IMG/VR virus record: IMGVR_UViG_3300028920_000091
Location: 1-51,157 of that record
Length of the DNA stretch: 51,157 nucleotides
DNA from: a virus
Direction: 5' to 3' (one strand)
Each line of letters begins with the position of its first letter. Position 1 is the stretch's first letter. A model generated the notes under the pieces. That model made no database searches, was not told the DNA's origin, and worked only from the letters and a program-made list of their open reading frames with translations. A program made the translations under genes and the position numbers. Shown here piece by piece: positions 2,620 through 38,735 of this stretch.

Positions 2620-2765
2620 TGACACAGATACTGATAGTGTTGGGTCTTGTCCTATGTATAGGCGTGATGTGCTTCATCATAGGATACCAGGTAGGTTGGA
2701 ATAGCTCCGTGAAGTTCACGGAGCATTACATTGACAAACTGTGGAACCAATGGGAGGTAGAATGA
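2619..2765 (+). CDS. Small single-pass membrane protein, 48 aa
   Basis: This 48-codon gene is coupled to the gene before it (TAATG). Residues 3-25 are a continuous hydrophobic helix (ILIVLGLVLCIGVMCFIIGY) followed by a polar tail, so the product is probably a type III or signal-anchored inner-membrane peptide. A holin-like or superinfection-exclusion role is conceivable but unproven. The tail region contains the 21-bp palindrome at 2704-2724. Confidence 0.5.
   Translation: MTQILIVLGLVLCIGVMCFIIGYQVGWNSSVKFTEHYIDKLWNQWEVE
2704..2724. repeat. Perfect 10-bp inverted repeat (21-bp palindrome)
   Basis: GCTCCGTGAA, one central base, then TTCACGGAGC. The symmetry is perfect over 10 bp per arm and stops abruptly on both sides. 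It lies inside the coding region of the small membrane protein. The shape suits an operator for a dimeric protein better than an RNA hairpin, because the loop would be very tight. Confidence 0.55.
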
Positions 2766-2766
2766 T

Positions 2767-2937
2767 ATGCCAGAATTATTAAGAACACTGACGGACATCT
2801 ACGACACGCTATACAGGGTGGCCATGTTCCTTGCAAGGCTGACAAGATACCTTGATAGGCACGACATCTTCACACAAGAGGAGACGAAGAACCTGTATGA
2901 GTTGTTGGAAAAGATACCTGATGGGAAGGAGGGATAA
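2767..2937 (+). CDS. Hypothetical helical protein, 56 aa
   Basis: ATG at 2767 begins one base after the preceding stop, with GGGAGGTAG as SD. The charged amphipathic helical protein ([20 protein letters not shown]) shows no cysteines. Its stop overlaps the next start by one base. I recognise no family. Confidence 0.5.
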
Positions 2938-3191
2938 TGCCAAGGATACTGGACACAATAGGCAAATACAACATAGTTGAAGGCAACGATGGCGTTCTGT
3001 ATTGCACATGTCCAGCATGGAAGTTCAGCAAGGACAAACCCAAGACATGTAAGCACCTGACAAGCTACCTGCGTAGGCAACAGACCATGCTTGGTGATGA
3101 TGAGCATGTGCCAACACTGATAGTAAGCGATACCAAACTGGACAAGCTAATAGACAGGGCGATACATCAACTGAAAGGACGGGAACAATGA
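2937..3191 (+). CDS. SWIM zinc-finger protein, 84 aa
   Basis: The motif CTCPAWKF...KTCKHL (residues about 23-41) fits the SWIM consensus CxC-(n)-CxH, a zinc-binding module found in MuDR transposases, SWI2/SNF2 proteins and some prokaryotic DNA-processing proteins. Nothing else is attached, so this is a free-standing SWIM protein with a helical tail. It probably binds DNA or a protein partner. Its neighbours are a coupled upstream gene and a SpoVG-like gene downstream. Confidence 0.6.
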
Positions 3192-3250
3192 CAAGAACAG
3201 AAATGCTACGAGCAAAAGCAAAGGAGGAACATGCCAACACCTGTAGTTAG
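3188..3250 (+). CDS. Possible 20-aa peptide overlapping spoVG-like start
   Basis: An ATG overlapping the upstream stop (ATGA at 3188) opens 20 codons that end inside the next gene. The peptide is charged ([15 protein letters not shown]). It may serve only as a translational bridge to the gene starting at 3231, whose SD (AAGGAGGA) lies within it. Low certainty. Confidence 0.25.
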
Positions 3251-3575
3251 AGTGGAACACATGCACCTTGTCAATGGGACAGGTGTAACCAAAGCGTTCT
3301 GTGATTTGGTGATACTGGATACCTTCGTAGTCAAGGGACTACGCATAGTGAACGGCAAACACGGGCTGTTCCTGTCCATGCCAACACAGAAATCAAAGGA
3401 CGGCAAGTGGTATGAAACTTTCTATCCCACAAGCAAGGAGATGAGGAAGGGACTACAAAGCCTTGTCCTTGAGGCGTATGAGTTGGAGATGGAACAAGTG
3501 AAAGTGGTGCCGGAACAGGAACAAGTAGCATCAAAACAACTGAAGATACCCAACAACATGAATAATCTACATTGA
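3231..3575 (+). CDS. spoVG: SpoVG-family regulator
   Basis: Residues about 28-85 match the SpoVG fold: FVVKGLRIVNGKHGLFLSMP followed by K-DGKWYETFYPTSKEMRKGLQ, aligning with the conserved GLF(V/L)xMP and the D-G--(R/Y)-----P-----R/K segment. SpoVG proteins are small DNA- and RNA-binding regulators, best studied in Firmicutes and spirochaetes. The usual length is about 85-100 aa; here there is a Gln/Glu-rich tail of about 30 residues. Start at 3231 behind AAGGAGGAAC. It may regulate phage or host genes. Confidence 0.75.
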   Translation: MPTPVVRVEHMHLVNGTGVTKAFCDLVILDTFVVKGLRIVNGKHGLFLSMPTQKSKDGKWYETFYPTSKEMRKGLQSLVLEAYELEMEQVKVVPEQEQVASKQLKIPNNMNNLH

Positions 3576-3609
3576 AAGAGTGTTGAAACTAAAGAGAGGA
3601 GGTGATATA

Positions 3610-4476
3610 ATGAACATAGCTCCAAGACTGGAAATGAAAACCAAGGACAAGGATGTGCGGTTTCCTGCCGTAGTTGAGCCGAAGTATGACGGCGAGTTCA
3701 ATGTCTACTTCAACGGCAAGCTCATCAACAGACACGGAAGGGTGAGGGCCAACACTGCTATCACGGATACGCTCCTAAGTATATTCGGCAGTGACTGTGT
3801 GCTGTATGGCGAGCTTATCAAAGAGGGTGGTCAAGCAGGTGACATCTTCAAGCTCAACAGCGATAAGGATAATCCCACATGCTACATGGTCTTTGATGTG
3901 TTGCATTACCAAGGCGAGGACCTCACAAAGCATCCGCTGATGGAACGGAAAACACTGCTGTCTCAGATATGGGACACTCTGCCCGACGGGGCGGTCTGGA
4001 ACACATGCACGGGTGACTTCAATGTGGATATTGTCCTCGGAACCAAGGTGCATACACATCAAGAACTATGGCGTGAATATCAACAGGCTACCAAGTCAGG
4101 ATACGAGGGTGTGGTTGTAAAGCCACTCAATAGTGTGCTACCTGTGACATCATGGGTTAAGCTCAAGACTGAGTTCACCTCAGACCTCAGGGTCTATAAG
4201 GTGTGCCAAGACCAAGAGCGGATAGAGGTAGAGCATGATGTATACAATGAGGCAGGTGACTACCTGTTCAATGTGGTAACTGGCGTGAAGTGTGTTGATA
4301 AATACAAGAAGGACATCAAGGTGGGTGACATCGTTGAGGTTAAGTATAATCAGATACTGGGTAGTGGGTCATTGAGACACCCAGTGTATGTGCGTAAGCG
4401 TGATGACAAAACAAGAGGGGACAGCATAACTGTCCGCAGAGGAGGTGACGAGAGTGAAGACGAGCAAAGTGAGTGA
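3610..4476 (+). CDS. ATP-dependent DNA ligase, minimal type
   Basis: Seals nicks or ends in DNA by ATP-dependent adenylation. Motif I is EPKYDGEF with the nucleophilic lysine near residue 23. Motif III-like VFDVLHYQG, motif IV EGVVVKP and motif V WVKLKTE follow in order, then an OB-fold-like C-terminus (VGDIVEVKYNQ). At 288 residues it resembles the shortest viral ligases, which lack an added DNA-binding domain. Start is ATG 3610 behind GAGGAGGTG; an upstream TTG at 3580 is less likely. Its operon partner at 7547 resembles Ku, suggesting joint action in end joining. Confidence 0.88.
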   Translation: MNIAPRLEMKTKDKDVRFPAVVEPKYDGEFNVYFNGKLINRHGRVRANTAITDTLLSIFGSDCVLYGELIKEGGQAGDIFKLNSDKDNPTCYMVFDVLHYQGEDLTKHPLMERKTLLSQIWDTLPDGAVWNTCTGDFNVDIVLGTKVHTHQELWREYQQATKSGYEGVVVKPLNSVLPVTSWVKLKTEFTSDLRVYKVCQDQERIEVEHDVYNEAGDYLFNVVTGVKCVDKYKKDIKVGDIVEVKYNQILGSGSLRHPVYVRKRDDKTRGDSITVRRGGDESEDEQSE

Positions 4477-5806
4477 CCAGACACTGCGTGAAATGCGTGA
4501 TACCTTAAAGCCACACAGGCAGAACAGCAAGTGGATAGCACACCAGTTGCTATCACAGAGAGGGCAAAAGCTACATCACAGCACGATAAGGCAGAGGTTC
4601 ATTGACATGGGTGAACCACTGGGAGGCAAGAAGACGACACCAAAACCAACACCACAAGGAGGAGGAAACATGAGCAAAGGAACCTTCAAGTTCAAGAAGG
4701 GCGATAAGCTAATCATATCGCACACCTTGCCTGATGATGACACTGTATTACCCGGCATCAATGACGAGATGAGGCAGATGAAGGGCAGGTCAGTGACCAT
4801 ATCGGACATGGTAGATGACAGCAGAGGCAGGATATACTCTGTTGAGGAGTGTGAGTGGGCGTGGCTTGAGGACTGGCTTGAGGTGAAGAAGACCAAGACG
4901 AAGCGTGAGATAGAGGTGAACGCTGACCCGGTAAACCCAGAGTTGGAACAGTTCATACCCAAAGCTGAGGTGTTCGCACACTATGTGGAGAGGGGTGTAG
5001 ATGACAGGCTCGCTACTCACTTGGACCTTCAGGCATCAGGCAAGGGCAACAAGTATCCACTGTTGCAGGGTAAGCAGGGAACAGGGAAGACCATGGCACC
5101 GCAGTATTACGCACACAAGAGGGGGCTTCCTCACTTCCTGTTCTCCTGTTACGAGGACTTCAAGTTACCCAAACTGTTCGGTGATAAGACAATACGAGAG
5201 GGTAACATAGAGTTCATTGAGTCGCTGTTCGTCAAGGCGATACAGGGGCCGTGCGTTATAACCTTTGATGAAATCAATGCGATAAGTCAGCCCAATACCT
5301 ATGACTTCCATGCATTGACAGCCAACAGGGAGCTGTTCATCAAGGATGCTGACAACGGGAACGGCAAGGTGTATAAGTTGCACCCCGGCTGTCGCATATG
5401 CTTTGCTCAGAACCCAAAGAGCAAGAAGTATATCGGCGGTAATGTGAGAGCGAGCAACTTCCTTGGCCGTTGCACTTACATCAGCTACCCGGAGTTCACA
5501 ACCAAGGAGCTTGACAGCATACTTGAGAAGGCACACCCCGACATGACACCGGCAGAGAGGTCACTGTTCGTCAAGTATTACGAGGCTGTGAACAAGACGA
5601 TAGACAAGAGCGAGTTGCCTGTTGACATCAGCATAAGACAGCTCCACAACATGATAGACCTGTGGATGGCAGGCTTCTCACTGCACGAAGCGATAGAGGA
5701 CGGCATGGCTTCGGTTACTGAAGCGATAAGCCAGCCGTCAGCAAAGGAACCGTTGATGACACTGGCCAAGGGTGTGTGGTCAGACCTCAATGAAAGGAGA
5801 GTGTAA
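4454..5806 (+). CDS. MoxR/CobS-type AAA+ ATPase with N-terminal extension
   Basis: AAA+ ATPase of 450 residues. Walker A is GKQGTGKT (residues 206-213), Walker B is VITFDEI near 270, and the sensor-1 region is ICFAQNP. Order and spacing fit the MoxR/CobS group, which remodels proteins together with VWA-domain partners. GTG 4454 lies 8 nt after AGAGGAGG, but a second in-frame start, ATG 4670, has its own strong SD (AAGGAGGAGG) and would give 378 residues without the N-terminal 72. That extension is basic and helical, ending in a Lys/Pro/Gly linker. The VWA gene follows immediately (TAATG), supporting a two-component complex. Confidence 0.85.
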   Translation: MKTSKVSDQTLREMRDTLKPHRQNSKWIAHQLLSQRGQKLHHSTIRQRFIDMGEPLGGKKTTPKPTPQGGGNMSKGTFKFKKGDKLIISHTLPDDDTVLPGINDEMRQMKGRSVTISDMVDDSRGRIYSVEECEWAWLEDWLEVKKTKTKREIEVNADPVNPELEQFIPKAEVFAHYVERGVDDRLATHLDLQASGKGNKYPLLQGKQGTGKTMAPQYYAHKRGLPHFLFSCYEDFKLPKLFGDKTIREGNIEFIESLFVKAIQGPCVITFDEINAISQPNTYDFHALTANRELFIKDADNGNGKVYKLHPGCRICFAQNPKSKKYIGGNVRASNFLGRCTYISYPEFTTKELDSILEKAHPDMTPAERSLFVKYYEAVNKTIDKSELPVDISIRQLHNMIDLWMAGFSLHEAIEDGMASVTEAISQPSAKEPLMTLAKGVWSDLNERRV

Positions 5807-7530
5807 TGGACGCACAAGAAAGGCAAAGGCGTAGGACATTTGACATCATCTCAAAGTTCATGGCTGACAAGAGCAGGGTGAGCCTTGAGATGGTAGAAAA
5901 TGCGATACCTTCATGCAACCCAAAGACAGGACACATCACACTGCCGAGCAACATGAAGACCGAGAACCTTATGGCAGCGTTGGGTCTGCTCGCACATGAG
6001 GCAGGACATATCAGGTTTACCAAGTTTGATTTGTCCAAGGCTGTGCGTAAAGACAGTGACCGGCACATCATCAATGCATGTGAGGATGCACGCATTGACA
6101 AGCAGATGATGGACCTGTTGCCCAACATGCGTGGGTTCTACCAAGAAATGTATGACAGCTTCGCTGAGAAAAGGAAGAAGAAACCAAGCACGGCACCCAT
6201 TGAAGTCAAGATACTTCAGGCCCTCATCAAGAGGAACGAGGGGTTTATGGAGAGTGTGGAGCCTGATGTATACAAGGCCATATCCGGACACAACTTAGAC
6301 CAATACTTCCAAGAAGTGATATACAAACTGTATGACTTGGCCGGCAGCGACACGAAAACCCACAGGCAGGCACTATGGGGTGCCATAGATAACTTCGCCA
6401 AGAGGTTGTTCAAAGCAAAGGAGGAGCATGAACAAGAGCAACAAGCAAAGGGACAAAAAGGAAAATGCAATGGCGGAAATGGCGGTGATGGCAACACTGG
6501 ACAAGGCTCTAACTCCACAAAGGATGCTCAAGGCACTGGCAGCGGGACAGGTGCAGGTGATAAACAAGAGCCTGACAGCGAAGGAGACGATACAGATAGT
6601 GGAAGCGGAGACGGCGATGAGGGAGATGTTCCACAAGGCAATGACAGCGGAGACGGAGGACCCGGCCAGAGCAGGAAGGCAGTCCAAGTCTCGGGCGACG
6701 GCACCTTCAAGGAGAGGCCGAAAGCCAACACCGAACTCAACCTTGACGGCATGGATGAGTATGAAGACGAGAAGCGTGAGCTACTTGAAGCGGACGAAAG
6801 CGTGGCTTATGAGCCTATTACGGAGAACGAACAGATAGCACTGAGAGAGACAACCAAGGTGTGCTTCACGGAGCTGTTGAACATCAAGGAAACCAAGGTC
6901 GTTCCCGAAGGTGAGGTGTTGGATACGGACAACTTGGTAGCGTTCCCCGTAGGTGACATTGATGCTATCTACAAGGACGCAACGCATACCAAGAGGATGA
7001 AGTCAAAGGTGCTGTTGCTGTTGGACTGTTCGGGTAGCATGGAGGAAGAACTCTATGACAAGGTGAGCAGGGAGCAGACAGTGGCAAGCACAGCCAAGTC
7101 CATAATACACATACTTGAGGAGTGCAACCAAGCGTATGGACTGGATGTGACCTATGACCTGCGTGCATTTGGTAACCGATACCACATCTTGAGCAAGGAG
7201 AACTGGGAGCGTGAATACTTCAGGATACCTGACGGCGGCACATCGTTGGAGACGGCCTTCAATGCGTCACTGGAGGAGATGATGAAGGCATGGGATGTGG
7301 ATGGGAACAAGCTCATCCTCACTATCACTGACGGCGAGGTGAACCAGCGAGAGATAGAGGAAGTAAGAAAGAAAATCATAGACAATGCAAGCACAATTAA
7401 AGTCATGGTGGTGGGTGTCGGTGCTTGCCCGGTCGGCCACTTTACCAAGCTGATAACAAGGCACAACATTATCACTGGTGAGATGGCAGACAGGACCATC
7501 ATGGACGCAATAACAGAGATGTTAGACTAA
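5806..7530 (+). CDS. CobT-like protein: HExxH metallopeptidase-like domain plus VWA domain
   Basis: Three parts are visible. Residues about 1-200 carry HEAGH (64-68) followed by NACEDAR (90-96), the zincin-like pattern of DUF2201-type putative metallopeptidases. Residues about 210-300 are a Gly/Asp/Ser/Gln-rich flexible linker. Residues about 400-574 are a VWA domain with MIDAS motif DCSGS (from about 407), GGTS and TDGE. CobT-like proteins pair with CobS/MoxR ATPases, and here the ATPase gene is directly upstream with overlapping stop and start. Several phages carry CobS/CobT-like pairs of unclear function. Peptidase activity is inferred, not shown. Confidence 0.8.
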   Translation: MDAQERQRRRTFDIISKFMADKSRVSLEMVENAIPSCNPKTGHITLPSNMKTENLMAALGLLAHEAGHIRFTKFDLSKAVRKDSDRHIINACEDARIDKQMMDLLPNMRGFYQEMYDSFAEKRKKKPSTAPIEVKILQALIKRNEGFMESVEPDVYKAISGHNLDQYFQEVIYKLYDLAGSDTKTHRQALWGAIDNFAKRLFKAKEEHEQEQQAKGQKGKCNGGNGGDGNTGQGSNSTKDAQGTGSGTGAGDKQEPDSEGDDTDSGSGDGDEGDVPQGNDSGDGGPGQSRKAVQVSGDGTFKERPKANTELNLDGMDEYEDEKRELLEADESVAYEPITENEQIALRETTKVCFTELLNIKETKVVPEGEVLDTDNLVAFPVGDIDAIYKDATHTKRMKSKVLLLLDCSGSMEEELYDKVSREQTVASTAKSIIHILEECNQAYGLDVTYDLRAFGNRYHILSKENWEREYFRIPDGGTSLETAFNASLEEMMKAWDVDGNKLILTITDGEVNQREIEEVRKKIIDNASTIKVMVVGVGACPVGHFTKLITRHNIITGEMADRTIMDAITEMLD

Positions 7531-7546
7531 CCAAAGGAGGAAGAAG

Positions 7547-8266
7547 ATGGCAAGAGCAACTAACTTGAAGATTATCGCAACGGACGCAGGTGTGGTGTGT
7601 GATGTGAAGATGGAGAACTTGAGCGGGCGTAAGCCGAGGACAGTGGCAGGTGTGCCTATTGAAATCAAAGCGGATGGGTCACCGAAGCTCAAGTATAAGG
7701 ACCATGCCGGCAATGAGCTGTCCTTTACCAACATGCTGAACGGACAGCCCGTGATGACAGATGGCCGTGGCTATGTGGATGAGCATGGCCAGTTGCAGGA
7801 CCCGATACCATACATGGTGTTGGAGGACGGCACGGAACTGGTAGCAGAGCCGAGGCCAAAGACAGAGGTGTATGAGATAAAGGGTTGGATGCCCGAAGGA
7901 ACAGAGAACAGCTATCTGATAGAGAAAGTGTATCAGATAAGGCCATCACAAGGCACATCCAAGAAGGATGTCATCCGGAACCAGACCAAGCATGCCAACA
8001 CCGCAGCCATGAAGAAGTTGTATGACTACATGGTTGAGCATGGCGTGGTAGCCAAGGCAGTGTGCAATGTATCAAGCACAGGCAAGCTTGACTATGTTGG
8101 GTTCCTGAAGGCGGTGGACCTTGGGACACAGTGGACCATGGAGATGGTGATAGCCAAGCAGGAGAAAGAGTATGCTTGGATGGAGGAAAAGAACTTCCAA
8201 GCACAGGCACAGCAACAGCAACAGGCAACCATTAAGAACAACATAAATACAGTGGATGCACTGTAA
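7547..8266 (+). CDS. Putative Ku-like DNA end-binding protein, 239 aa
   Basis: ATG 7547 follows AAGGAGGAAG. The central part shows the order of a bacterial Ku core: KLKYKDHAGNEL, then a VLEDGTEL segment, then KTEVYEIKGWMPEG (compare K-x-(V/I)-x-I-x-x-F-V), then YLIEKVYQIRP (compare YFxKxYYLxP) and MKKLYDYMVEHGVVAKAV (compare Y-LLREAL--TGK-AIA). Mycobacteriophages Omega and Corndog are known to encode Ku. An insertion of about 15-20 residues precedes this core, and the C-terminus is Gln-rich. The operon also encodes an ATP-dependent ligase. The match is by eye only, so another phage family remains possible. Confidence 0.5.
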   Translation: MARATNLKIIATDAGVVCDVKMENLSGRKPRTVAGVPIEIKADGSPKLKYKDHAGNELSFTNMLNGQPVMTDGRGYVDEHGQLQDPIPYMVLEDGTELVAEPRPKTEVYEIKGWMPEGTENSYLIEKVYQIRPSQGTSKKDVIRNQTKHANTAAMKKLYDYMVEHGVVAKAVCNVSSTGKLDYVGFLKAVDLGTQWTMEMVIAKQEKEYAWMEEKNFQAQAQQQQQATIKNNINTVDAL

Positions 8267-8276
8267 GGAGGACACA

Positions 8277-8456
8277 ATGAAGAAGACCATATTCAGAAAG
8301 CACGACCCCCAACCACCCATACCTGCGGAGTGTGGGCCACATATGCCATGCTATGTGCGTGACATAGACAGTAAGGACAGGTCATGTGTGCAACCTGCTT
8401 GGAAATGCACAGAGTGTATGAACCGATACAGATTGGAGAAACAAAATGGAGCATGA
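8277..8456 (+). CDS. Small Cys-containing protein, 59 aa
   Basis: ATG at 8277 behind AAGGAGGACAC. A CGPHMPC segment, a lone Cys and a CTEC pair near the C-terminus could make one zinc site. It is basic with a Pro-rich N-terminus (KHDPQPPIPAE). It overlaps the following gene by 11 nt. Unknown function; it fits the series of small Cys-rich proteins of this operon. Confidence 0.55.
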   Translation: MKKTIFRKHDPQPPIPAECGPHMPCYVRDIDSKDRSCVQPAWKCTECMNRYRLEKQNGA

Positions 8457-8802
8457 CAAATATGAGTTCTATGACCAAGACTCACCGGAAGGAAAGGCCG
8501 CATACAAACAGGCCCTCGGCGATGCCTTCCTCACATTGAGTGAGATGCAGAGGGGGGACTCCTTCTATATCATAACCATCAAGAAGGGGTTGTTCTCCAA
8601 GTCGGGGAGGATAATCGGGAAGTGCATGAGCCAAGATGTAGACCAAATGAGGAAGTTGCTTACCCAGTTATCGGATGACCTTTCCAAATCCAACAGCACC
8701 AAGGAAGAATACGATGAGTTCAACAGAATAATGGAGAACTTCTATGACAACGATACCGAACAACCCGACGAGCAAGGACCTCCTGACACGGAAGGAGATT
8801 AA
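8446..8802 (+). CDS. Hypothetical acidic protein, 118 aa
   Basis: ATG 8446 lies in the end of the upstream gene. The N-terminus is charged, a beta-like central part follows (SFYIITIKKGLFSKSGRIIGK), and the C-terminus is highly acidic with many Asp, Glu and Pro. No domain recognised. The acidic tail could suggest DNA mimicry, or interaction with basic partners, but that is speculation. Confidence 0.6.
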   Translation: MEHDKYEFYDQDSPEGKAAYKQALGDAFLTLSEMQRGDSFYIITIKKGLFSKSGRIIGKCMSQDVDQMRKLLTQLSDDLSKSNSTKEEYDEFNRIMENFYDNDTEQPDEQGPPDTEGD

Positions 8803-9019
8803 GACTGAAGCTGACCTTGTAGTGTTCCTTAAGTATGCCTACCTCTCAGGCTACAAGGAAGCTTACAAGCTGAGTGTGGAAGGCAAGGTCTGCCCCCGCT
8901 GTGGGGAAACTATACGCAAGAGACTCGCCCCGGACGATAAGACACTATGGAAAAGGATAAGTGTTCACTTCCATAAGTGGCTCTTGTCCATATCTAAGCA
9001 GAACCCGCATCAAGAATAG
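8744..9019 (+). CDS. Hypothetical protein with CxxC, 91 aa
   Basis: ATG 8744 sits inside the upstream gene, preceded by GGAGAAC; the overlap is 59 nt. One CPRCG pair lies in the middle (near residue 50), and the C-terminal half is basic (IRKRLAPDDKTLWKRI). It is the last gene of the plus-strand operon, and its end overlaps the convergent minus-strand nuclease gene by 26 nt. Function unknown. Confidence 0.55.
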   Translation: MTTIPNNPTSKDLLTRKEIKTEADLVVFLKYAYLSGYKEAYKLSVEGKVCPRCGETIRKRLAPDDKTLWKRISVHFHKWLLSISKQNPHQE

Positions 9020-9419
9020 CCACGAACCCACGCTGATATGGCCTCTTAACGCACAGCAAGGGGATACCATTGCCCCCGTATCCCTTTGCTTGTGCAAGGC
9101 CACGCCTGATAAACTCTGCCTTCCGCTTGGACAGCAACCCAACGAACCCACGCATGCTGATGGCAAGTATATCGGAGACCTCTATCTCATGTGATGGTAT
9201 AAGCACATACAGCGTGTGGCTTTTCTTTGTCCCCACCACGAACCCGCAGGTGTAGTCAACCATAAGATACTTGGGAACCTGCTTACCATACTTGCACTCT
9301 ATTGAATAAATAGGATGGTCAATATCAGCAACCCTATCATGGTAACCAACACGGATGTTGCGTTTCCCACCAAGCACATGGGCTACCTCCTTCTCAAGTT
9401 CTTTCCACGCTTTCACCAC
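8994..9419 (-). CDS. Resolvase-like PD-(D/E)XK nuclease, 141 aa
   Basis: The segment DIDHPIYSIECKYGKQVP (about residues 32-49) is the D-(x)-ExK signature of small phage Holliday-junction-resolvase-like nucleases. In that family a conserved acidic residue, an E-x-K strand and a following helix (KYLMVDY) form the active site. A later segment (SHTLYVLIPSHEIEV) fits the next strand. It probably cleaves branched DNA during recombination or packaging. It starts at GTG 9419 (or GTG 9416) after AAAAGGGGGG. It is the last gene of the minus-strand block and converges on the plus operon. Confidence 0.6.
   Translation of the reverse strand: MVKAWKELEKEVAHVLGGKRNIRVGYHDRVADIDHPIYSIECKYGKQVPKYLMVDYTCGFVVGTKKSHTLYVLIPSHEIEVSDILAISMRGFVGLLSKRKAEFIRRGLAQAKGYGGNGIPLLCVKRPYQRGFVAILDAGSA
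9056..9089. other. Stem-loop in the convergent junction
   Basis: GCAAGGGGATAC (9056-9067) pairs with GTATCCCTTTGC (9078-9089): a 12-bp stem with one G-T wobble and a 10-nt loop. It lies 37 nt past the end of the plus-strand operon, within the minus-strand nuclease gene. No long T-run follows on either strand, so it is at best a weak terminator or an RNA end-stabiliser. Confidence 0.35.
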
Positions 9420-9645
9420 GCCCCCCTTTTACTATTTTCTTAGCCGCTTTTTCTATAAGGTCATCCAAGCTTTTGTCCTTCTTCTCGGTAAGCTTTTTCT
9501 TTTCGTTTGACTTGAGCTTCTGTGCCTGCTTAAAAGCACTGCGAATATACTCATTGTGGGTCGCATAAGAATAAGTCGCAGTGAACAGGTCACGCAAATC
9601 CGTATCAAGTAGCCCACCCCAATTTTCTGTTGCTACGATACCCAT
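9394..9645 (-). CDS. Short protein with a capsid-protein-like N-terminus, 83 aa
   Basis: The first 21 residues (MGIVATENWGGLLDTDLRDL, then F) match the start of this phage's major capsid protein (43922-44818) at about 14 positions. The DNA just upstream is also alike (GGGGGTGATAAC before ATG here, GAGGAGGTGATACACA before ATG there). After about residue 40 it diverges into a Lys-rich helical segment (NEKKKLTEKKDKSLDDLI). This looks like a partial duplication of the capsid gene start fused to a basic tail. It could bind capsid subunits, scaffold or host sensors. An in-frame start at 9690 exists but lacks an SD. Confidence 0.65.
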   Translation of the reverse strand: MGIVATENWGGLLDTDLRDLFTATYSYATHNEYIRSAFKQAQKLKSNEKKKLTEKKDKSLDDLIEKAAKKIVKGGRGESVERT

Positions 9646-10160
9646 GTTATCACCCCCAATAGTAACCCGTATAACCAACACGCCCACCACCAGCTATCAG
9701 CCGGACACCATACCTTGACCAAGCCTATCTTTTTGCATGGCCCCCAGCTCCACTCAAAACAATTAGAACTGATGGCGGCCCCGATAAAACCAACACCCGA
9801 CAGCACAAGGATACCAAGCATAGGCAACCAAGAGAACCCATGGCCCACCCAGTAATACCATGCCGGTATCGCACCGCACAGCAACCCGTTCAGGAACAAC
9901 CCGAAGAACCCCATGGCCTGCTCTATTATGTCCGTCCCGGCCCACACCATCTGTATGCACTCATCATAGAACAGGGCTTGGTATATGCCCCAGCTTAAGA
10001 ACACAAGGAACAGGTAGAAATACCAAGGGTATCCACCAAGCAACGCAAAGACAGCCGTCACCAAGCCGACCAACAGGCCACGCTTCCACTTGCCGAAGCC
10101 ATGCTCTCCCCCGATAGCCCACGCAAACCCCATCAGTATCGCCAGTATTATGCCCATCAT
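9633..10160 (-). CDS. Multi-pass membrane protein, 175 aa
   Basis: Very hydrophobic, with about five possible transmembrane helices (for example MGIILAILMGFAWAIGG, LLVGLVTAVFALLGG and YLFLVFLSWGIY). Two adjacent ATGs (10160 and 10157) follow AAGGGGGA. Unknown family; holin, exclusion or membrane-anchor functions are possible, but no diagnostic feature is visible. It overlaps the GroES-like gene upstream by 4 nt and the capsid-like gene downstream by 13 nt. Confidence 0.65.
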   Translation of the reverse strand: MMGIILAILMGFAWAIGGEHGFGKWKRGLLVGLVTAVFALLGGYPWYFYLFLVFLSWGIYQALFYDECIQMVWAGTDIIEQAMGFFGLFLNGLLCGAIPAWYYWVGHGFSWLPMLGILVLSGVGFIGAAISSNCFEWSWGPCKKIGLVKVWCPADSWWWACWLYGLLLGVITWVS

Positions 10161-10444
10161 TCCCCCTTTACAAATGTCGCCAACACATCCATCTCGTCCT
10201 GTAACAGCATCTCCTCCCCGTCAATGACAAGGCCAACCCCTACAAACTTGTCTATCAACACCCGGTCACCCACCTTAAGGTCTATGCACTCATTGGCCTC
10301 TACTACCTTGCCCGTCAGCAACCTGCTGTTTCCCCACAGGTCAGCATCCACCGATTCCGGAAGGTGTATACCGCCCTGAGAAACAAGCTTGGGTATCTCC
10401 AACTGCAACAACACATGTCCCCTCTTAGGCTTTAGTAACATCAT
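10157..10444 (-). CDS. groES: GroES-like co-chaperonin
   Basis: The 95-residue length and sequence fit Cpn10: an N-terminal strand (RGHVLLQLEIP), a mobile-loop region (VSQGGIHLPES), then GKVVEAN, LKVGDRVLIDKF and GVGLVIDGEEMLLQDEMDVLATF. Compare the GroES consensus GKVVAVG, VKVGDxVLF and the end (D)ILAIV. Phage GroES-like proteins (T4 gp31 type) replace host GroES to help fold capsid proteins through host GroEL. No GroEL gene is present in the window, so it would use the host chaperonin. SD is AAAGGAGAG. Confidence 0.85.
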   Translation of the reverse strand: MMLLKPKRGHVLLQLEIPKLVSQGGIHLPESVDADLWGNSRLLTGKVVEANECIDLKVGDRVLIDKFVGVGLVIDGEEMLLQDEMDVLATFVKGE

Positions 10445-10611
10445 ACTCTCCTTTTTTGTATAGTTTTTTTGCCTTTCGGTATGCCCTTCTTGGGTCTACC
10501 TTTTTTCTTATGCTTTCCGGCAGGTGTGCGTATTGCATCATCACTGCCTTGCGTATCGCCTTTGACTTCACCTTCCTCATGTTCCCCCAGTTCATATGGT
10601 TTCGTAGTCAT
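10441..10611 (-). CDS. Basic AT-hook-like protein, 56 aa
   Basis: The C-terminal half is dominated by Lys/Arg, with KKKGRPKKGIPKGKK containing the GRP core of an AT-hook. The N-terminal half is acidic (ELGEHEEGEVKGD). It probably binds DNA in the minor groove. I place the start at ATG 10611; an in-frame ATG at 10623 would add four residues. It overlaps both neighbours slightly. Confidence 0.55.
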   Translation of the reverse strand: MTTKPYELGEHEEGEVKGDTQGSDDAIRTPAGKHKKKGRPKKGIPKGKKTIQKRRV

Positions 10612-10825
10612 CACCCATGACATTCCTCAACGGCACAGCATAACAAGTTATTTTCCCGTTAGTTTCCAGCGGGTGCTTCACTATGTCCGCACCCGTCATC
10701 TGGTAACTTCTTCCCTTTAGCGTTCCCTTTGTGAACACTATGTCGTTTAGGTCTTTTACTTTGTATTTTGCTATCAGCACCGTCCTGTCGTGCCACCGTG
10801 GGTTCCATATTTCTATTCTGTTCAT
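10592..10825 (-). CDS. Hypothetical protein, 77 aa
   Basis: ATG 10825 is preceded immediately by GGAGGAGG. A small beta-rich protein (WHDRTVLIAKYKVK, DIVFTKGTLKGRSYQMTG) with no recognisable catalytic motif. Its first 167 nt overlap the C-terminal reading frame of the upstream HNH-like gene, which is unusual for this otherwise orderly map. Of the two overlapping stretches, this frame looks more protein-like. Confidence 0.6.
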   Translation of the reverse strand: MNRIEIWNPRWHDRTVLIAKYKVKDLNDIVFTKGTLKGRSYQMTGADIVKHPLETNGKITCYAVPLRNVMGDDYETI

Positions 10826-11099
10826 CCTCCTCCAATCGTCTTGTCAGCCACCCCTCATAGAGTATGCCTTCATCCAATGTTATACGATACTGTGCTATGA
10901 CACTATCATGGCACGCATGGCATAACCCAACGGCATTGAAGGGGCTATGCACGAAGTTAGGACACATTGAACGGGCCAGACTGCTGTTGTGCAACCTGTG
11001 ATGCACTTCTTCCATTGGTTTAAGACAGTGCTTACAATACCCGTGCTGTGCTTTAAACACAAGTGTCCTAACTTCATGCGAGAACCCCTCACAATTCAT
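10659..11099 (-). CDS. HNH-like endonuclease domain protein, 146 aa
   Basis: N-terminal part: a CKHC pair, then EEVHHRLHNSS and GLCHACHDSV, matching an HNH fold (HH...N...H) braced by two CxxC zinc pairs. HNH nucleases in phages act in packaging or homing. The ATG at 11099 overlaps the previous stop (ATGA). After about residue 90 the sequence is low-quality and overlaps the start of the next gene by 167 nt, so the functional domain probably ends there. A lost stop codon or a frameshift could explain the tail. Confidence 0.55.
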   Translation of the reverse strand: MNCEGFSHEVRTLVFKAQHGYCKHCLKPMEEVHHRLHNSSLARSMCPNFVHSPFNAVGLCHACHDSVIAQYRITLDEGILYEGWLTRRLEEDEQNRNMEPTVARQDGADSKIQSKRPKRHSVHKGNAKGKKLPDDGCGHSEAPAGN

Positions 11100-11251
11100 G
11101 CCCTACCTGCTGTCCTTGTTTTGGCACCTCTCGGTGGTTGCCTCTTGGTCCCACGGTTGCCAACACCACCGCCGGAACCATCACGCCTGCGGGTCCCACC
11201 GCAACTACCCCTGCCACCACGACCTGCGTTACCACGACCTGTTCTTGCCAT
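11096..11251 (-). CDS. Arg/Gly-rich (RGG-type) peptide, 51 aa
   Basis: A 51-codon gene fits exactly between neighbours: its ATG (11251) overlaps the preceding stop by one base (TGATG), its stop overlaps the next ATG (ATGA), and AAAGGAGAC is its SD. Of 51 residues, 12 are Arg and 16 Gly, with repeated GRG, RGG and GGT units and one Cys. Such RGG-type sequences usually bind RNA or DNA and are disordered. No phage homologue is known to me. Confidence 0.6.
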   Translation of the reverse strand: MARTGRGNAGRGGRGSCGGTRRRDGSGGGVGNRGTKRQPPRGAKTRTAGRA

Positions 11252-11574
11252 CACTTGTCTCCTTTCAGTTTACCTCTCGGGACTATGTATACCTTCCCGT
11301 CCTTGTATATGACATCCAGCCTGAACTTATACTTCGTCTTGGCCCGTGTCCTGATATAGGATTTGAACCCCGTATACTGTTTCATGTTCTCAATGCCAAG
11401 GCTACCCATGTCATTCCACATAACATCCTCAGTGTCCAAGGTGATAGCCCGCTCAATGATGTGGTCATACCTGCCCCTCACCTGCTTGCACCCCTGCTCC
11501 AGTATGTCCTCCACATTGCTCTTTGGTATCACCAGCCACCCGTTCCCCGTTGCTATCTTCTTCTTCCTTCCCAT
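11251..11574 (-). CDS. Hypothetical basic protein, 107 aa
   Basis: ATG 11574 (after a GTG at 11577) follows GGAGGGTGTG. Soluble and basic, with KKKIA near the start and a C-terminal beta-like part (FRLDVIYKDGKVYIVPRGK). No motif or family recognised. It is translationally coupled to the RGG peptide gene. Confidence 0.6.
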   Translation of the reverse strand: MGRKKKIATGNGWLVIPKSNVEDILEQGCKQVRGRYDHIIERAITLDTEDVMWNDMGSLGIENMKQYTGFKSYIRTRAKTKYKFRLDVIYKDGKVYIVPRGKLKGDK

Positions 11575-11689
11575 CACACCCTCCTTTGTTTAGATACGCT
11601 ACGATACATGGTATACAGAACATGCTACCCCACACCTTGATGTGCGGTGTATCGCCGCACTTATCACACCTGAGTATTACTTTCTCCAA
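11465..11689 (-). CDS. Zinc-ribbon-like protein, TTG start, 74 aa
   Basis: TTG 11689 lies in the last codons of the methyltransferase gene. CDKCGD and CIPC at a spacing of about 13 form a clear zinc-ribbon-like site in the first 30 residues. The Gly/Glu-rich remainder overlaps the next gene by 113 nt and may be non-essential tail. The SD is weak, so the start is uncertain, but the cysteine pattern argues that it is real. Confidence 0.45.
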   Translation of the reverse strand: MEKVILRCDKCGDTPHIKVWGSMFCIPCIVAYLNKGGCDGKEEEDSNGERVAGDTKEQCGGHTGAGVQAGEGQV

Positions 11690-12264
11690 TACACACCAGT
11701 CCAGTCTATGATATTAAGCGGCGTTGTTATCTTACGCTTCCACCGGAAGTCTGTCACCGCATATCGGCAGCCCTTGACTGCCCCGTAGTCATCTATGATA
11801 CAGAACCCACCGGGTGAGAGCTTATCATAGAGTATATCCAACACCTCAATGGTTGACCCATACATGTCCCCGTCCAGCCGGAGTATAGCAAGCTTGTCTA
11901 TCGGTGCCGTTGGCAGGGTGTCCTTGAACCAGCCCTCAAGGAAGACCACCTTGTCATCCAACAGGCCCTCCTTCCTGAAGTTATCTTCTACCTCCTGCCT
12001 GCTGACCGCCAACTCCTTACGCCTGTAATGCTTGTCACCATCGTCAGCCCTATACTTGGGGTCGGGGGGCGGTAGCCCACGAAAGGAGTCAGCCACGAAC
12101 ACTCGCCTGCCTGTGTGCATTGACTGCATGAGCATACACATGCCCCCCTTCCAGACACCAGTCTCTATGAAATCTCCCGGGATACCTTCCGCCACGACGG
12201 TATCAACACACCGCATAAGGTTATCCACACGACTGCCGGTAACCATAGTATAATCTTTATACAT
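11677..12264 (-). CDS. TylF-type SAM-dependent O-methyltransferase
   Basis: Strong match to the macrocin O-methyltransferase (TylF/NovP) family. Visible conserved stretches are RVDNLMRCVD (12-21), GIPGDFIETGVWKGG (27-41), VADSFRGLP (58-66), LRLDGDMYGST (129-138) and PGGFCIIDDYGAV (151-163) with metal-site aspartates, plus the terminal DWTGVYWRK. Family members methylate sugar hydroxyls. I take ATG 12264, which overlaps the preceding stop; an ATG at 12348 would overlap that gene by 92 nt. In a phage it may modify a virion or host glycan. Confidence 0.88.
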   Translation of the reverse strand: MYKDYTMVTGSRVDNLMRCVDTVVAEGIPGDFIETGVWKGGMCMLMQSMHTGRRVFVADSFRGLPPPDPKYRADDGDKHYRRKELAVSRQEVEDNFRKEGLLDDKVVFLEGWFKDTLPTAPIDKLAILRLDGDMYGSTIEVLDILYDKLSPGGFCIIDDYGAVKGCRYAVTDFRWKRKITTPLNIIDWTGVYWRK

Positions 12265-12475
12265 CTTTGTCACTCTTGTCTTCCCACGCTTTGCGTATAA
12301 CCGCCCATATATCTTGATACCATGTGCGGTCTGAATAGCCCAGCTCATGCCGTGCTATGTCCACCACCACTTGGATGTCCGAATCGTTATCAGAATTATA
12401 GGCGGTCTCTATCTCCTCATCCCACTCGGAACAGAAGTCCATCAAAGCCTTACGCCTTACTTTGTATTTGCTCAT
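12257..12475 (-). CDS. Hypothetical protein, 72 aa
   Basis: ATG 12475 follows AGGTGGGG. The protein has a basic start (KYKVRRKALMDF), an acidic middle (DEEIETAYNSDNDSD) and a Trp-containing C-terminus. No family recognised. It overlaps the zinc-finger gene before it and the methyltransferase gene after it. Confidence 0.5.
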   Translation of the reverse strand: MSKYKVRRKALMDFCSEWDEEIETAYNSDNDSDIQVVVDIARHELGYSDRTWYQDIWAVIRKAWEDKSDKDV

Positions 12476-12608
12476 CAAGTCCCCACCTTTCTTGCCAACA
12501 CCTCTTACTGCAATACCGTTGCTGCGGGTTCTTCTGGTTAAACCTCTTACCGCACATCTCGCACTTTACTTTTGTCTCTCTCCGAAACCCTTTCTTTTTT
12601 TCTGCCAT
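12450..12608 (-). CDS. Small zinc-finger protein, 52 aa
   Basis: ATG 12608 behind GGAGGAATAAT. A basic N-terminus (MAEKKKGFRRETKVK) precedes CEMCGKRF...RYCSKRCW, a single C-x2-C...C-x3-C zinc finger of the FCS/MYM-like type often seen in small phage regulators. It probably binds nucleic acid. The end overlaps the next gene. Confidence 0.6.
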   Translation of the reverse strand: MAEKKKGFRRETKVKCEMCGKRFNQKNPQQRYCSKRCWQERWGLDEQIQSKA

Positions 12609-13051
12609 ATTATTCCTCCGTTCTCATACAGCCGTATAGCATCGGGATACTCACGGTATAATTCCCAACACTTGGTAGCCTTGTCAGCCTCCTCCCACTC
12701 CAGCCATATGGACATGTATTCCTCCAATGCCTTGGCGTTGCTGTAGTTAGAGGAAGTAATCTTACCTACGGCATCCATATACTTAGACACCTCAGGGTCC
12801 TTGAACACACGCAAGAGTATCTCCTGCTTCGCCTCTTTCTTCTGTGTCTTCCAGTCCATAGTATCCATGTCAGCACGGAGGGACTCCAGCTTATGCGGCG
12901 TAGAAGGCAGAGGCTGGTAAGCAAACTTATCCAACATGCCATAAGCCACCTCGGCCATGTATACTTCAAGCTCCTCTTGCGGAAGGCCAGCCCTTAAGGC
13001 GGCCATACATACCGCACCTATCTCATCATTGGCGTTCCATACTATCTCCAC
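12566..13051 (-). CDS. Hypothetical helical protein, 161 aa
   Basis: GTG 13051 lies 7 nt after AAGGAG. Mainly helical and acidic (GLPQEELEVYMAEVAYGMLDK and ALEEYMSIWLEWEEADKA), ending in a basic tail (WQKKRKGFGERQK). No recognised motif. It overlaps the zinc-finger gene by 43 nt. Its neighbours are replication genes, so a DNA-metabolism role is possible but unproven. Confidence 0.6.
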   Translation of the reverse strand: MEIVWNANDEIGAVCMAALRAGLPQEELEVYMAEVAYGMLDKFAYQPLPSTPHKLESLRADMDTMDWKTQKKEAKQEILLRVFKDPEVSKYMDAVGKITSSNYSNAKALEEYMSIWLEWEEADKATKCWELYREYPDAIRLYENGGIIWQKKRKGFGERQK

Positions 13052-13192
13052 CGTCTGTCTCCTTATCCATTATCCTTTGGGTTGGTGGGGGCTGGTCTTC
13101 TATGTTGCCTTAGTGTAACTACCATTTGTCATTACTCGGCTCGTTCTGCAGAACTGCCTTTCATCAAGCAACAAACCCCCATAACTCCTCCT
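13052..13192 (-). other. Short gap with two tiny reading frames
   Basis: Behind a strong SD (AAAGGAGGAG, near 13190) an ATG at 13182 opens only 16 codons (to 13132), with a Cys-Cys pair. Another ATG at 13125 opens 20 codons (to 13063) with a basic start (VVTLRQHRRP). Either could be a micro-peptide or a leader for the GTG-start gene below. Neither can be assigned. Confidence 0.3.
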
Positions 13193-13471
13193 TTAAATTG
13201 GCTCCCCGAACAGGTCTGTTACCCTGTTCCATTTGTAATAAGCAAGCTCATAATCACCACGGCCATACTTATCCTTAAACTTCTGTGTTGATATGGGGAC
13301 ACCCAGCTTTACCACCGTCCCCTTGTAGTCCACATGGGTATAGCCACGACCTACCGGGACAGCAACCAGATGCTCTACCTCGGCGTCCTTACCCAACACC
13401 TTGACACCCGGTATCACCGTCTTAGCCTTATATACTTTTGTATTTTGCGAGTGGGTCGTATTTGTCTGCAT
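13193..13471 (-). CDS. Hypothetical protein, 92 aa
   Basis: ATG 13471 follows GGAGGATAAGT; it overlaps the end of the initiator gene by 44 nt. A beta-rich small protein (KVYKAKTVIPGVKVLGKD, HVDYKGTVVKLGVPIS) with a Gly/Lys-rich middle. No family recognised. Confidence 0.55.
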   Translation of the reverse strand: MQTNTTHSQNTKVYKAKTVIPGVKVLGKDAEVEHLVAVPVGRGYTHVDYKGTVVKLGVPISTQKFKDKYGRGDYELAYYKWNRVTDLFGEPI

Positions 13472-14117
13472 ACTTATCCTCCAATGCTTTGGCATAGTTA
13501 TGGTCGTTGGCTATGAACCAGTCTATAGTGGCCTTCCATCCCCTGTCATTATGACCCTTCATAAAGGAACTCTGTGCCATCTTGTCTATAGCCTCCTTCC
13601 AGTTGTCCTTGAAGTGTATGTTCTCAAACCTCTTGCCCAGCTTCTTTTCCCTCTCGGGAGTGAGAGTAACTATACGGGGTAGTCCTTTCTTACTATTCCA
13701 GTAGTCTACTATCTCCTTATAGATACTCTCTTGTATATCCTTATCCTTATCCTTCACCCTTATTATACTGTAATGGTTAGATAACCCTTTACTAACCCTT
13801 TCCATCTGTTTTATCACACCCCTATGTGTAGAGGATGCAGGATTAAGGGGTAAGCCATACTGGAACTCAATGAACTTGGGTATAAACCAGTATGTCCCAC
13901 CGTTAAGGATACGCACCTTCTCACCATAAGCCACAAGGATTTCCCTCTCGTCATATACTTGAGCAAGATGATGGCTGGCCAGTATAAGGTTGACTTTATA
14001 TATACCGGCACAGTCACACTTGTCTAAGATGTATACCCATAAGAACTTATACTTGGTTTCAAGATTATAGAACCAAGGGTCGTCCCATTTATCCGTATCT
14101 GTCAGTCTCTTAGCCAC
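13428..14117 (-). CDS. Replication initiator-like protein (phage DnaD/O-type), 229 aa
   Basis: The N-terminus AKRLTDTDKWDDPWFYNL followed by KFLWVYILDKCDCAGIYKVN is typical of winged-helix phage replication proteins. The C-terminal SSFMKGHNDRGWKATIDWF motif with a following KALEDKY is the conserved tail of phage replisome organisers. Such proteins bind the origin and load the host helicase. GTG 14117 is 8 nt after AAGGGG; the GTG at 14126 is too close to that SD. No helicase or primase is seen in the window, consistent with use of the host replisome. Confidence 0.7.
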   Translation of the reverse strand: MAKRLTDTDKWDDPWFYNLETKYKFLWVYILDKCDCAGIYKVNLILASHHLAQVYDEREILVAYGEKVRILNGGTYWFIPKFIEFQYGLPLNPASSTHRGVIKQMERVSKGLSNHYSIIRVKDKDKDIQESIYKEIVDYWNSKKGLPRIVTLTPEREKKLGKRFENIHFKDNWKEAIDKMAQSSFMKGHNDRGWKATIDWFIANDHNYAKALEDKYADKYDPLAKYKSI

Positions 14118-14142
14118 TTTAAACACCCCTTATTTTCAACAG

Positions 14143-14211
14143 AAAGGGGCCTCAGAGGGGCGAAAGGGGGGGAAGAAGATGAACCCCCCTTAAAAGTGGG
14201 AATGCCCCTCT
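14143..14211. other. G-rich repeats and nested inverted repeats beside the initiator gene
   Basis: Three related G-rich units (AAAGGGGC at 14143, AGAGGGGC at 14154, AAAGGGGG at 14163) stand in a row. AGAGGGGC (14154-14161) pairs with GCCCCTCT (14204-14211), and inside it AAGGGGGG (from 14164) pairs with CCCCCCTT (14184-14191). This is the only structured gap between replication genes. It could be a replication origin or a regulatory RNA structure ahead of the initiator gene. Confidence 0.4.
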
Positions 14212-14228
14212 AAGGACCTTATATCGCC

Positions 14229-14675
14229 TCAGAAGGGTGGTTCTTCTTCGCCCGCCACCATGACAGGTTGCTGTGATGCGTCCACGCTGTAGTTTGTCAC
14301 CTTATTATTGTTGTAGTCCTTGTCATAGCTGACAGTCCAGTAGGTAGTGCATCCCTTGCAGGCATCAAGAACCTTGGCAAAGGACTTGGACCCTACCTCC
14401 ATGGCTGACAGGTTTGACAGGTCTACATTACACGCCTGAACAAGGTTGGCTATGCGGAACAGGGATTTCTCTGTAAGGGGTGTGTAGTCCCTCATAGGCC
14501 CACCTGTGTCAGGACCCTCTATGATAGTGGATGTCCACAATACCTGAGGGGTCTTTGTGTTCTTGGCTTCAGTCTCCTCCCAGTCCTCAATACGCACACG
14601 ATAGGTGCCAGCCGCATACACCGGGAAGCTCTGGCTCGCTACCTTGCTCCAATCAATTACAGCTTTCTTGCCCAT
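14229..14675 (-). CDS. Single-stranded DNA-binding protein-like, 148 aa
   Basis: The product ends in GEEEPPF, the acidic tail ending in a phenylalanine that SSBs use to bind partner proteins (compare DDDIPF). The body (GTYRVRIEDWEETEAKNTKTPQVLWTSTI cut by a glycine turn) fits the beta-rich DUF669-like phage ssDNA-binding proteins. It would coat single-stranded DNA during replication and Sak4-driven recombination; the Sak4-like gene is directly upstream and its stop overlaps this start by one base. Assignment rests on context and tail. Confidence 0.65.
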   Translation of the reverse strand: MGKKAVIDWSKVASQSFPVYAAGTYRVRIEDWEETEAKNTKTPQVLWTSTIIEGPDTGGPMRDYTPLTEKSLFRIANLVQACNVDLSNLSAMEVGSKSFAKVLDACKGCTTYWTVSYDKDYNNNKVTNYSVDASQQPVMVAGEEEPPF

Positions 14676-15418
14676 TACTCCTCCTTTTTCTTGTAATCAT
14701 ACTCACGCAATTTTGTCAGCAAGGTAGGGAAGTCGGCTACCTCGGCATCGTCAAGGCCCTTGAATTGACACTTGGTAACACACTGGTCATCAGGTCCGAA
14801 CTTGACCCACCGTTTCCCTGACTTGTCTGACACTCGCAGATGTCCACACACATCTACGATACCCACTATCTCCGGAGCTATACGCTTTGCCATCTTCGGG
14901 AAGGTGGCTGTCAACACCTTGCCGTCCATGTTGCGTATATCCAGCGGGAACTCCCATGCGTTGAACACTACCGTGATACCCTTGAACACAAGGTCACGGA
15001 ACAACCGCAGGTATTCCCTCATCTTGAACGCACCATCACCGTATTCTTTTATCTCGGTGAACTCCTTGTCCCGCTTGCGTGTCAGATACAGCAGGATGAA
15101 CTGTTCCATCTCGCTGATGTTATCCAACACCACATACTTGAACGGGTGCTTCTCAGTGGCCAGATACTTATACATCTTCTCCAGCCTTTCAAGCTCGTCC
15201 TCACCTTTGATACTGAACACCATGTGGTCAGTTCCCATCAACGGCCCCACCCCCGCCTCAAAGCTGATGAACAATGTCTCACCAGCCGGGAGGGTGCTTG
15301 CCATTGTGGTCTTGCCTACACCGGGATTAGCGTATATCAGGAACGATATTCCCCGCTGTATCTTATCCGGCACCTTACTCGGATTAAGAGTGTTGTTCGG
15401 TATATTACCGTTGGACAT
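14675..15418 (-). CDS. Sak4-like RecA-fold ATPase (single-strand annealing recombinase)
   Basis: Walker A is ANPGVGKTT (residues 30-38) after FLIY, and Walker B is YVVLDNISE near 97-105. This is the RecA/RAD51-core layout of phage Sak4 and AAA_24-type nucleotide-binding proteins. Sak4 proteins promote annealing or strand exchange together with a phage SSB and an exonuclease, and both have candidates next door (14229-14675 and 15869-16837). Start is ATG 15418 after GGAGGAGGTCCAT, eleven codons inside the longest frame. Length is typical. Confidence 0.8.
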   Translation of the reverse strand: MSNGNIPNNTLNPSKVPDKIQRGISFLIYANPGVGKTTMASTLPAGETLFISFEAGVGPLMGTDHMVFSIKGEDELERLEKMYKYLATEKHPFKYVVLDNISEMEQFILLYLTRKRDKEFTEIKEYGDGAFKMREYLRLFRDLVFKGITVVFNAWEFPLDIRNMDGKVLTATFPKMAKRIAPEIVGIVDVCGHLRVSDKSGKRWVKFGPDDQCVTKCQFKGLDDAEVADFPTLLTKLREYDYKKKEE

Positions 15419-16866: not shown

Positions 16867-16894
16867 AGTATAGCATGAAAAAATCTTTAGTCAA
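16867..16894 (-). promoter_or_regulatory. Sigma70-like promoter for the replication block
   Basis: On the minus strand TTGACT (16889-16894) and TATACT (16867-16872) are separated by 16 bp, with transcription expected from about 16860. The -35 overlaps the last codons and stop of the sulfotransferase gene. The nuclease gene starts at 16837, so the leader is about 25 nt and contains only the SD. The element has the same -10 and the same 16-bp spacing as the promoter at 51087-51114. Confidence 0.75.
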
Positions 16895-17645
16895 GAGGGT
16901 AGCCCAAAAAAAGCAGAGGTTTTTTCAGGAAATCATAGTCCCATTGTTTCCTCGGAAGGTTACGCCAGAGTTGCATCCTGTCTTTCCGGGGAGGGGGGAT
17001 GTTCTTTATCTCTATGCCCACGAAATCCCCGAGCCTTTTTACCTCCCGTTCAGGGTGTTCAAGGAAATCCTCATACCGTATCATCAGGAAGTTTTTGGGG
17101 GCAGGGGTCTGGAACATGATGTCAAACTGGAACTTCCATGACAAGGCCCGGTTCATATAGACATCATCCGTCAGGGGGCAGGGGACATCAAAGGCACCCA
17201 GTATATCCGTGATGTGCGGACCCTGTATGACATCCCGTGGGTCCCTTACCCAATAGACAAAGCTCATCTCGGGGAACATGCGGGCCAGCCACGGGTAGAT
17301 AAGGCCCGTCTCCGGTAGCTTCCACCCACGCTTACCCTCCCTGTTAATGATAGACGAAAGATACTTGCTGAGTTGCTTGTCAATGTTGGGTATAGTGCCG
17401 CTGATAAGGGTCTTCAGGTTCCACAGGCCACCGGTGATATGCCTCGCACGGTAACCGGCCATACGGCACACGCTATAATAGACATTATTTGTGCCTATCA
17501 GGTCCATGGATTTGTTGAGAGGGGTCCCCATAAACACGCCGTTATCTTGTAAAAGCTGTGTAGGAATCCTTGTCCCAGAGTGACCCCTCCCGAAAACGCA
17601 CACCACATCCTGCGAATTAAGCGAATTAAGCGGATTAACTTTCAC
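16887..17645 (-). CDS. Sulfotransferase, 252 aa
   Basis: Transfers sulfate from PAPS to an acceptor hydroxyl. The 5'-phosphosulfate loop is GRGHSGTR (19-26). The 3'-phosphate-binding site is VYWVRDPRDVI (130-140), with the Arg/Asp pattern typical of the family. A later YEDFLEHPEREV segment fits the conserved motif after it. Length is within range. GTG 17645 overlaps the upstream stop by 4 nt; a poor SD leaves the exact start open. Acceptors could be carbohydrates of the virion or host surface. It is the last gene of the late block. Confidence 0.8.
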   Translation of the reverse strand: MKVNPLNSLNSQDVVCVFGRGHSGTRIPTQLLQDNGVFMGTPLNKSMDLIGTNNVYYSVCRMAGYRARHITGGLWNLKTLISGTIPNIDKQLSKYLSSIINREGKRGWKLPETGLIYPWLARMFPEMSFVYWVRDPRDVIQGPHITDILGAFDVPCPLTDDVYMNRALSWKFQFDIMFQTPAPKNFLMIRYEDFLEHPEREVKRLGDFVGIEIKNIPPPRKDRMQLWRNLPRKQWDYDFLKKPLLFLGYPLD

Positions 17646-18051: not shown

Positions 18052-18173
18052 TTGTCATCCTCCTTGTTTAACAGCTTTTCTTTAGCGTCATTATACAACT
18101 TATCTAAAGCATCTGACAGCTCCCGCTGTGCTAAAGCGATGCGTTTCATGTCGTGGAGTATAAGGTTGTCCAT
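18006..18173 (-). CDS. Short helical protein, 55 aa
   Basis: ATG 18173 overlaps the stop of the giant gene (TAATG) and follows GGGGGTAATATA. It is highly charged and helical (HDMKRIALAQRELSDALDKL), soluble, without a membrane span. It overlaps the next gene by 46 nt. The stretch near the end contains that gene's SD. Function unknown. Confidence 0.5.
   Translation of the reverse strand: MDNLILHDMKRIALAQRELSDALDKLYNDAKEKLLNKEDDKWNKLSPSLKQTGPR

Positions 18174-34008: not shown

Positions 34009-38735
<4,727 letters not shown>

Follow-up and report, generated by a model that had tools for sequence, protein, structure and literature searches.

We have found, in a virus genome of 51,157 bases, a protein of 239 amino acids (7547–8266, plus strand) which is likely to be related, very distantly, to Ku, the repair protein that binds DNA ends, as judged from profile comparisons with Ku. 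The whole of this viral record was analysed and will be called the window. The gene of the Ku-like protein is found close to the gene of a minimal ATP-dependent DNA ligase, and the two proteins may form a pair which circularises the viral genome.

These genes belong to an early cluster, which runs rightward from position 1883, all on the plus strand. It starts with a conserved early protein of 175 aa (1883–2410), with relatives in contigs L039, L040, L041 and L042. It is followed by a SWIM-like zinc-finger protein (2937–3191; PF04434 E=0.01, below the cut-off), which is also found near the module in several relatives, and by a SpoVG-like protein (3231–3575; PF04026 71.1 bits, cut-off 29.6). 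In four genomes, the window, L039, L041 and L042, the SpoVG gene directly precedes that of the ligase. Then come the ligase, with 288 aa (3610–4476), a CobS/MoxR-like AAA+ ATPase (4445–5806; PF07728 35.5 bits, cut-off 22; phrog_249 E=2.9e-17), a CobT-like protein (5806–7530; phrog_459 E=1.6e-8) with a HExxH motif near the N terminus and a DxSGS VWA motif near the C terminus, and finally the Ku-like protein. The four ORFs of the module share one strand and either overlap or leave a gap of 16 bases; they are all present as an earlier sequence-only reading of this DNA had described them. That reading had also named a resolvase-like nuclease. Its ORF is real (8994–9419), but it is on the opposite strand, hence outside this operon, and has no Pfam match. 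Elsewhere in the window the minus strand codes for a protein of 2579 aa without Pfam match (18173–25912), which is presumably virion-associated. The same strand has genes for a collagen-like repeat protein (34008–37961), a TylF-type O-methyltransferase (11677–12348) and a sulfotransferase (16887–17645), which hint at surface-glycan or fibre modification.

When it is searched alone, the 239-aa protein has no informative match in Pfam, PHROGs or NCBIfam, and it has no relatives in the phage collection or in the IMG/VR viral contigs. Its relatives have been gathered solely through the neighbour genes, mostly CobS. Thus the AAA+ neighbour leads to contig L001, where it is 63% identical, and L001 codes for a protein 26% identical to the window 239-aa protein (E=1.5e-19). 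In total there are 13 related contigs, nine viral and four from metagenome-assembled bacteria; all except L039, a short fragment, have a Ku-like gene. Together with the window protein they form a family of 13 members with lengths of 218–252 aa. The ligase, CobS and CobT are close by in each of the 12 contigs which carry the Ku-like gene. However its position is variable: after CobT, between CobS and CobT, between the ligase and CobS, or before the ligase. The co-occurrence of the four genes supports their co-retention, but it is not a proof of shared function: in part it mirrors a common virus lineage, as CobS was the route to most of the contigs.

Contig L041 belongs to an assembly of Candidatus Omnitrophota (G001). 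In it an ORF resembling a tyrosine integrase (10310–11305) comes after the module, and then rpoD-like and dnaG-like ORFs; the flanking ORFs probably correspond to rpoD and dnaG themselves. The prophage spans positions 2751–15002 and supplies a host for an otherwise uncultured lineage of tailed viruses. Its presence indicates that relatives of the window virus infect Omnitrophota and would need circular DNA for integration. Ku proper is above the Pfam cut-off in four of the 285 Omnitrophota genomes scanned and is not found in G001, so that host NHEJ would rarely be available; it appears to be rare across Omnitrophota. The profile of the Ku-like family, applied to 384 Omnitrophota genomes, gives only two prophage loci, both already known.

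The relationship with Ku is found at the level of profiles. The Pfam search for Ku (PF02735, curated cut-off 25 bits), which the sequence-only reading had proposed as a check, is negative for the window protein, and none of the 13 family members passes the cut-off. The best relatives are below it, L010 with 16.5 bits (E=0.0079) and L014 with 16.1 bits (E=0.011); both matches cover the corresponding stretch of the profile alignment. According to the E-values the chance of such a match is about 4e-7 per protein and about 5e-6 over the 13 members, assuming a single family named in advance (Ku, as named in the sequence-only reading) among 24,736. A comparison of the family profile with 12 Ku sequences gives a score of 32.1 (P=8.8e-4) over 104 columns. 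The controls are lower: 25.5 for the best of 999 column shuffles, 14.0 for reversed Ku, 14.6 for the reversed family and 12.8–15.4 for other families of the window. When the number of Ku sequences is raised to 22, the family scores 34.8, and none of 397 shuffles goes above 23.5. Out of 22 families from the same genomes compared with Ku, the Ku-like family stands out with 35.5, followed by a runner-up with 20.4. Even alone, the window protein scores 32.7 against the 22-member Ku profile; 397 shuffled Ku profiles give at most 25.9.

Individual sequences have also been ranked, using 748 six-frame ORFs from the 14 related loci. The window protein is first and that of L016 second; seven family members are within the top 13, while the L040 member is found in position 520. 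With a Ku HMM the top five ORFs all belong to the Ku-like family, none of them significant alone (best E=0.21). Separate parts of the family also match Ku: P=6e-4 for the window protein alone and P=5e-3 for the three members from metagenome assemblies. The aligned stretch is R.WVDD.G..Y.K.EL.F...E.V.E...TKVFEI.G.QP..NYTD.YVI..YYE..PDDNG.KKD...........M.KLW.YL.....VARGEF in the viral proteins and VD..TGkeV....ivKGYe....yV.l.dEEle.....KTIEI..FVP..EIDP.Y...PYYL.P.D..G..AY.LLR.AL....KVAIA in Ku. The order of conserved Ku segments noticed in the sequence-only reading is found again as a colinear similarity to the Ku core which exceeds the controls, but it stays below every curated threshold. We consider homology of the 239-aa family with Ku to be likely, with fairly good confidence, though it is not proven.

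The case of the ligase is simpler. As the sequence-only reading had claimed, it is a minimal ATP-dependent enzyme: motifs I (EPKYDG), IV (EGVVVK) and V (WVKLK) are found, PF01068 gives 54.4 bits (cut-off 26.2) and the KxDG motif is present in all 14 loci. Models of the OB domain match at the expected position, below their cut-offs (PF04679 23.7 and PF14743 22.6 bits, cut-offs 27.5 and 28). A LigD-type partner is absent: the ligase has only 288 aa, and TIGR02776 and TIGR02779 are far under their cut-offs. An assignment as NHEJ-type ligase was set aside: the single sequence is closest to DNA ligase IV, but the family profile ranks archaeal ligases, ligase III and ligase IV together. Judging from these matches, the viral enzyme is a general ATP-dependent ligase, not LigD. 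In L002 a second nucleotidyltransferase-like ORF (1971–2510) is found near the module; it has an EKIDGTNG motif and resembles RNA ligase.

The ends of the genome are conserved. On the module side (1–45) the window begins with GTCACC, the reverse complement of a conserved terminus ...GTGAC, as is also the case in G391 and G393. On the other side (51113–51157) the reverse complement begins with CCCTTGGCATGTGTGTA, which matches the starts CACC..(C/G)AT of G389, G391 and G393 at the same base. Beside this end lies the gene of the small terminase subunit (terS, 50333–50887, minus strand), annotated from its position before the large terminase; its homologues are 140–270 bp from the conserved end in G389, G391 and G393. 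The linear genomes of the window, G391 and G393 thus have an identical end site, 140–270 bases upstream of terS, and none of the three has a terminal repeat. In linear ends one side is ...GTGAC and the other one starts with CACC or CCCT, seven bases before CAT or GAT. In G387, G390 and G395, which are joined contigs, the sequence continues across the site as GTGAC/C[AC]CC, and no base is gained or lost at the joint; the spacing to CAT is the same in G387 and two bases longer in G395. G389 is exact on the terS side and different on the module side, and G394 is ragged. Hairpin telomeres were also considered, but the joined ends form no extended palindrome and the idea was set aside.

If a 5' overhang had been filled in, its bases would appear twice, and if a 3' overhang had been trimmed, bases would be lost. 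Neither is found in the linear contigs, so the ends should be fixed, with an overhang not exceeding one or two bases or so. This suggests that the viral termini are blunt or near-blunt and non-redundant, judging from six metagenome contigs whose library type is not on record. The idea of genome circularisation, also put forward in the sequence-only reading, thus gains unexpected support from conserved, non-redundant ends.

We can now propose how the module might work. The 239-aa protein would be a very distant homologue with a minimal Ku domain of about 220 aa, lacking the C-terminal extension that bacterial Ku has. We infer that it has the Ku fold and forms dimers, which after injection would bind the linear genome at both of its non-redundant, near-blunt termini, keep exonucleases away from these and hold the two together. 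The viral ligase would then seal the ends held by the Ku-like protein, and the circular genome would serve for replication and, in temperate relatives, for integration. With near-blunt ends neither the annealing of cohesive ends nor recombination between terminal repeats would be available, so that an end-bridging protein plus a ligase would be an economical solution. The same end-bridging logic has been proposed for the Ku of phage Corndog (PMC4351075); here the virus would also bring its ligase. In our judgement a LigD-free viral pair, in which a minimal Ku-domain homologue and its own ligase circularise the genome, has an even chance of being correct.

The chief alternative is end protection as in phage Mu, combined with an unrelated replication ligase. 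The Ku-like protein would shield the linear ends and the ligase would be an ordinary enzyme for sealing nicks during replication, with no dedicated end joining. Many phages which lack Ku have minimal ligases. Furthermore the profile of the ligase gives no preference to NHEJ ligases, and the C-terminal extension of bacterial Ku is missing in the viral protein. Gam of phage Mu is also a phage protein with a proposed relationship to Ku: it binds DNA ends (PMC1378119) and acts as a Ku-like dimer which blocks RecBCD at them (PMC1378119, PMC12407980). However, Pfam scans give no Gam match in any member of the Ku-like family, and in the window lineage, unlike in Mu Gam, a ligase is nearby. Wherever the Ku-like gene occurs, the ligase gene is kept close to it, maybe through shared ancestry, and near-blunt, non-redundant ends would still need to be joined. 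We consider end protection without joining rather unlikely.

A second rival is that the protein is not Ku at all: an unrelated early protein, for example a partner of the CobS-CobT AAA/VWA pair or a nucleic-acid binder, which resembles Ku by chance over some 90 columns. The negative result of the window protein in every curated library would agree with it. So would an hhalign probability of 23–31% for the match of the family with Ku, and the weak signal of the nine closest relatives when taken alone (score 18.9, P=0.096), in the same register. A PDB sequence search with the family gave nothing meaningful, and a search of 12 Ku-bearing records with its profile gave no first-look candidates, an outcome which is uninformative. 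Chance matches do occur: in the genome scan a glycosyltransferase-like ORF (L050) reached E=0.0058 with Pfam Ku, so that single matches near E=0.01 are unsafe. Nevertheless the controls by shuffling, reversal, other families and ORF rank all single out the Ku-like family, and independent subsets of it give compatible registers. Thus we regard a chance resemblance as unlikely and prefer a distant homology with Ku.

The CobS/CobT pair deserves a separate comment. The CobT-like protein has the DxSGS motif, with VWA models below their cut-offs (PF13519 20.4 bits, cut-off 27; PF00092 19.5, cut-off 23.8). This protein and its relatives have, in addition to the VWA domain, a conserved HExxH near the N terminus which recalls a metallopeptidase. 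PADLOC gives only weak AAA/VWA matches. Many tailed viruses have CobST pairs, which have been read as cobaltochelatase subunits and proposed to use the host CobN (PMC8651126). These pairs also have a PF07728 AAA+ protein and a DxSGS VWA protein in adjacent genes. In the window lineage, however, they are accompanied by the ligase, the Ku-like protein and often SpoVG, and the N terminus of the CobT-like protein has HExxH. A link of the pair with end joining, as suggested in the sequence-only reading, is unsupported: the pair is frequent among tailed viruses, another role has been proposed for it, and it can not be taken as evidence for end joining. That the whole cluster is a cobalamin chelatase, a view favoured by this wide distribution and by the proposed use of host CobN, with the ligase and the 239-aa gene as neighbours without functional link, is improbable, as the Ku-like gene stays nearby in spite of its four different placements and the identity of its product would be left unexplained. 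From the NHEJ module originally proposed we therefore keep a real ligase, a likely distant Ku homologue and the support of the genome ends, without the CobS/CobT link and without a resolvase in the operon.

It is of interest to compare the viral family with known Ku systems. Bacterial Ku (PF02735; B. subtilis YkoV, M. tuberculosis Ku) shares with it the colinear core V/I-E-I..F.P, Y...YY..P, L..L....V, and an ATP-dependent ligase is nearby in both cases. The viral proteins differ in lacking the long C-terminal extension and in having an insertion of about 15–20 residues before the helix; their neighbour is a stand-alone minimal ligase, whereas the partner of bacterial Ku is LigD. Actinobacteriophage Ku relies on the host LigD, while the window virus carries its own ligase. 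The actinobacteriophage proteins (Omega, Corndog and relatives) are likewise encoded by viruses, and a role has been proposed for them in recircularising genomes whose cohesive ends are very short or absent (PMC4351075). In Corndog the 3' extension is 4 bases long, and the phage Ku appears to be used for recircularisation (PMC4351075). However the actinobacteriophage proteins are close homologues, 37–40% identical to B. subtilis Ku, and cluster with the host Ku (PMC11936186), whereas the window protein is beyond ordinary detection.

In the papers cited here the recognised viral Ku proteins come from actinobacteriophages, with 11 viral sequences in PMC11936186. It is possible, although somewhat doubtful, that viruses of a candidate phylum contain an unseen branch of the Ku superfamily which, with a minimal ligase, gives host-independent end joining for blunt or near-blunt, non-redundant ends. 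End-binding proteins are also relevant to defence systems which act on phage DNA ends, such as Gabija (PMC12407980). If it is true, a pair of Ku-like protein and ligase in Omnitrophota viruses would extend Ku into a deep and undetected sequence space. End joining would then be a self-sufficient way of viral circularisation, besides cohesive ends and recombination of terminal repeats, and it would be tied to an unusual type of genome end, which can be checked directly.
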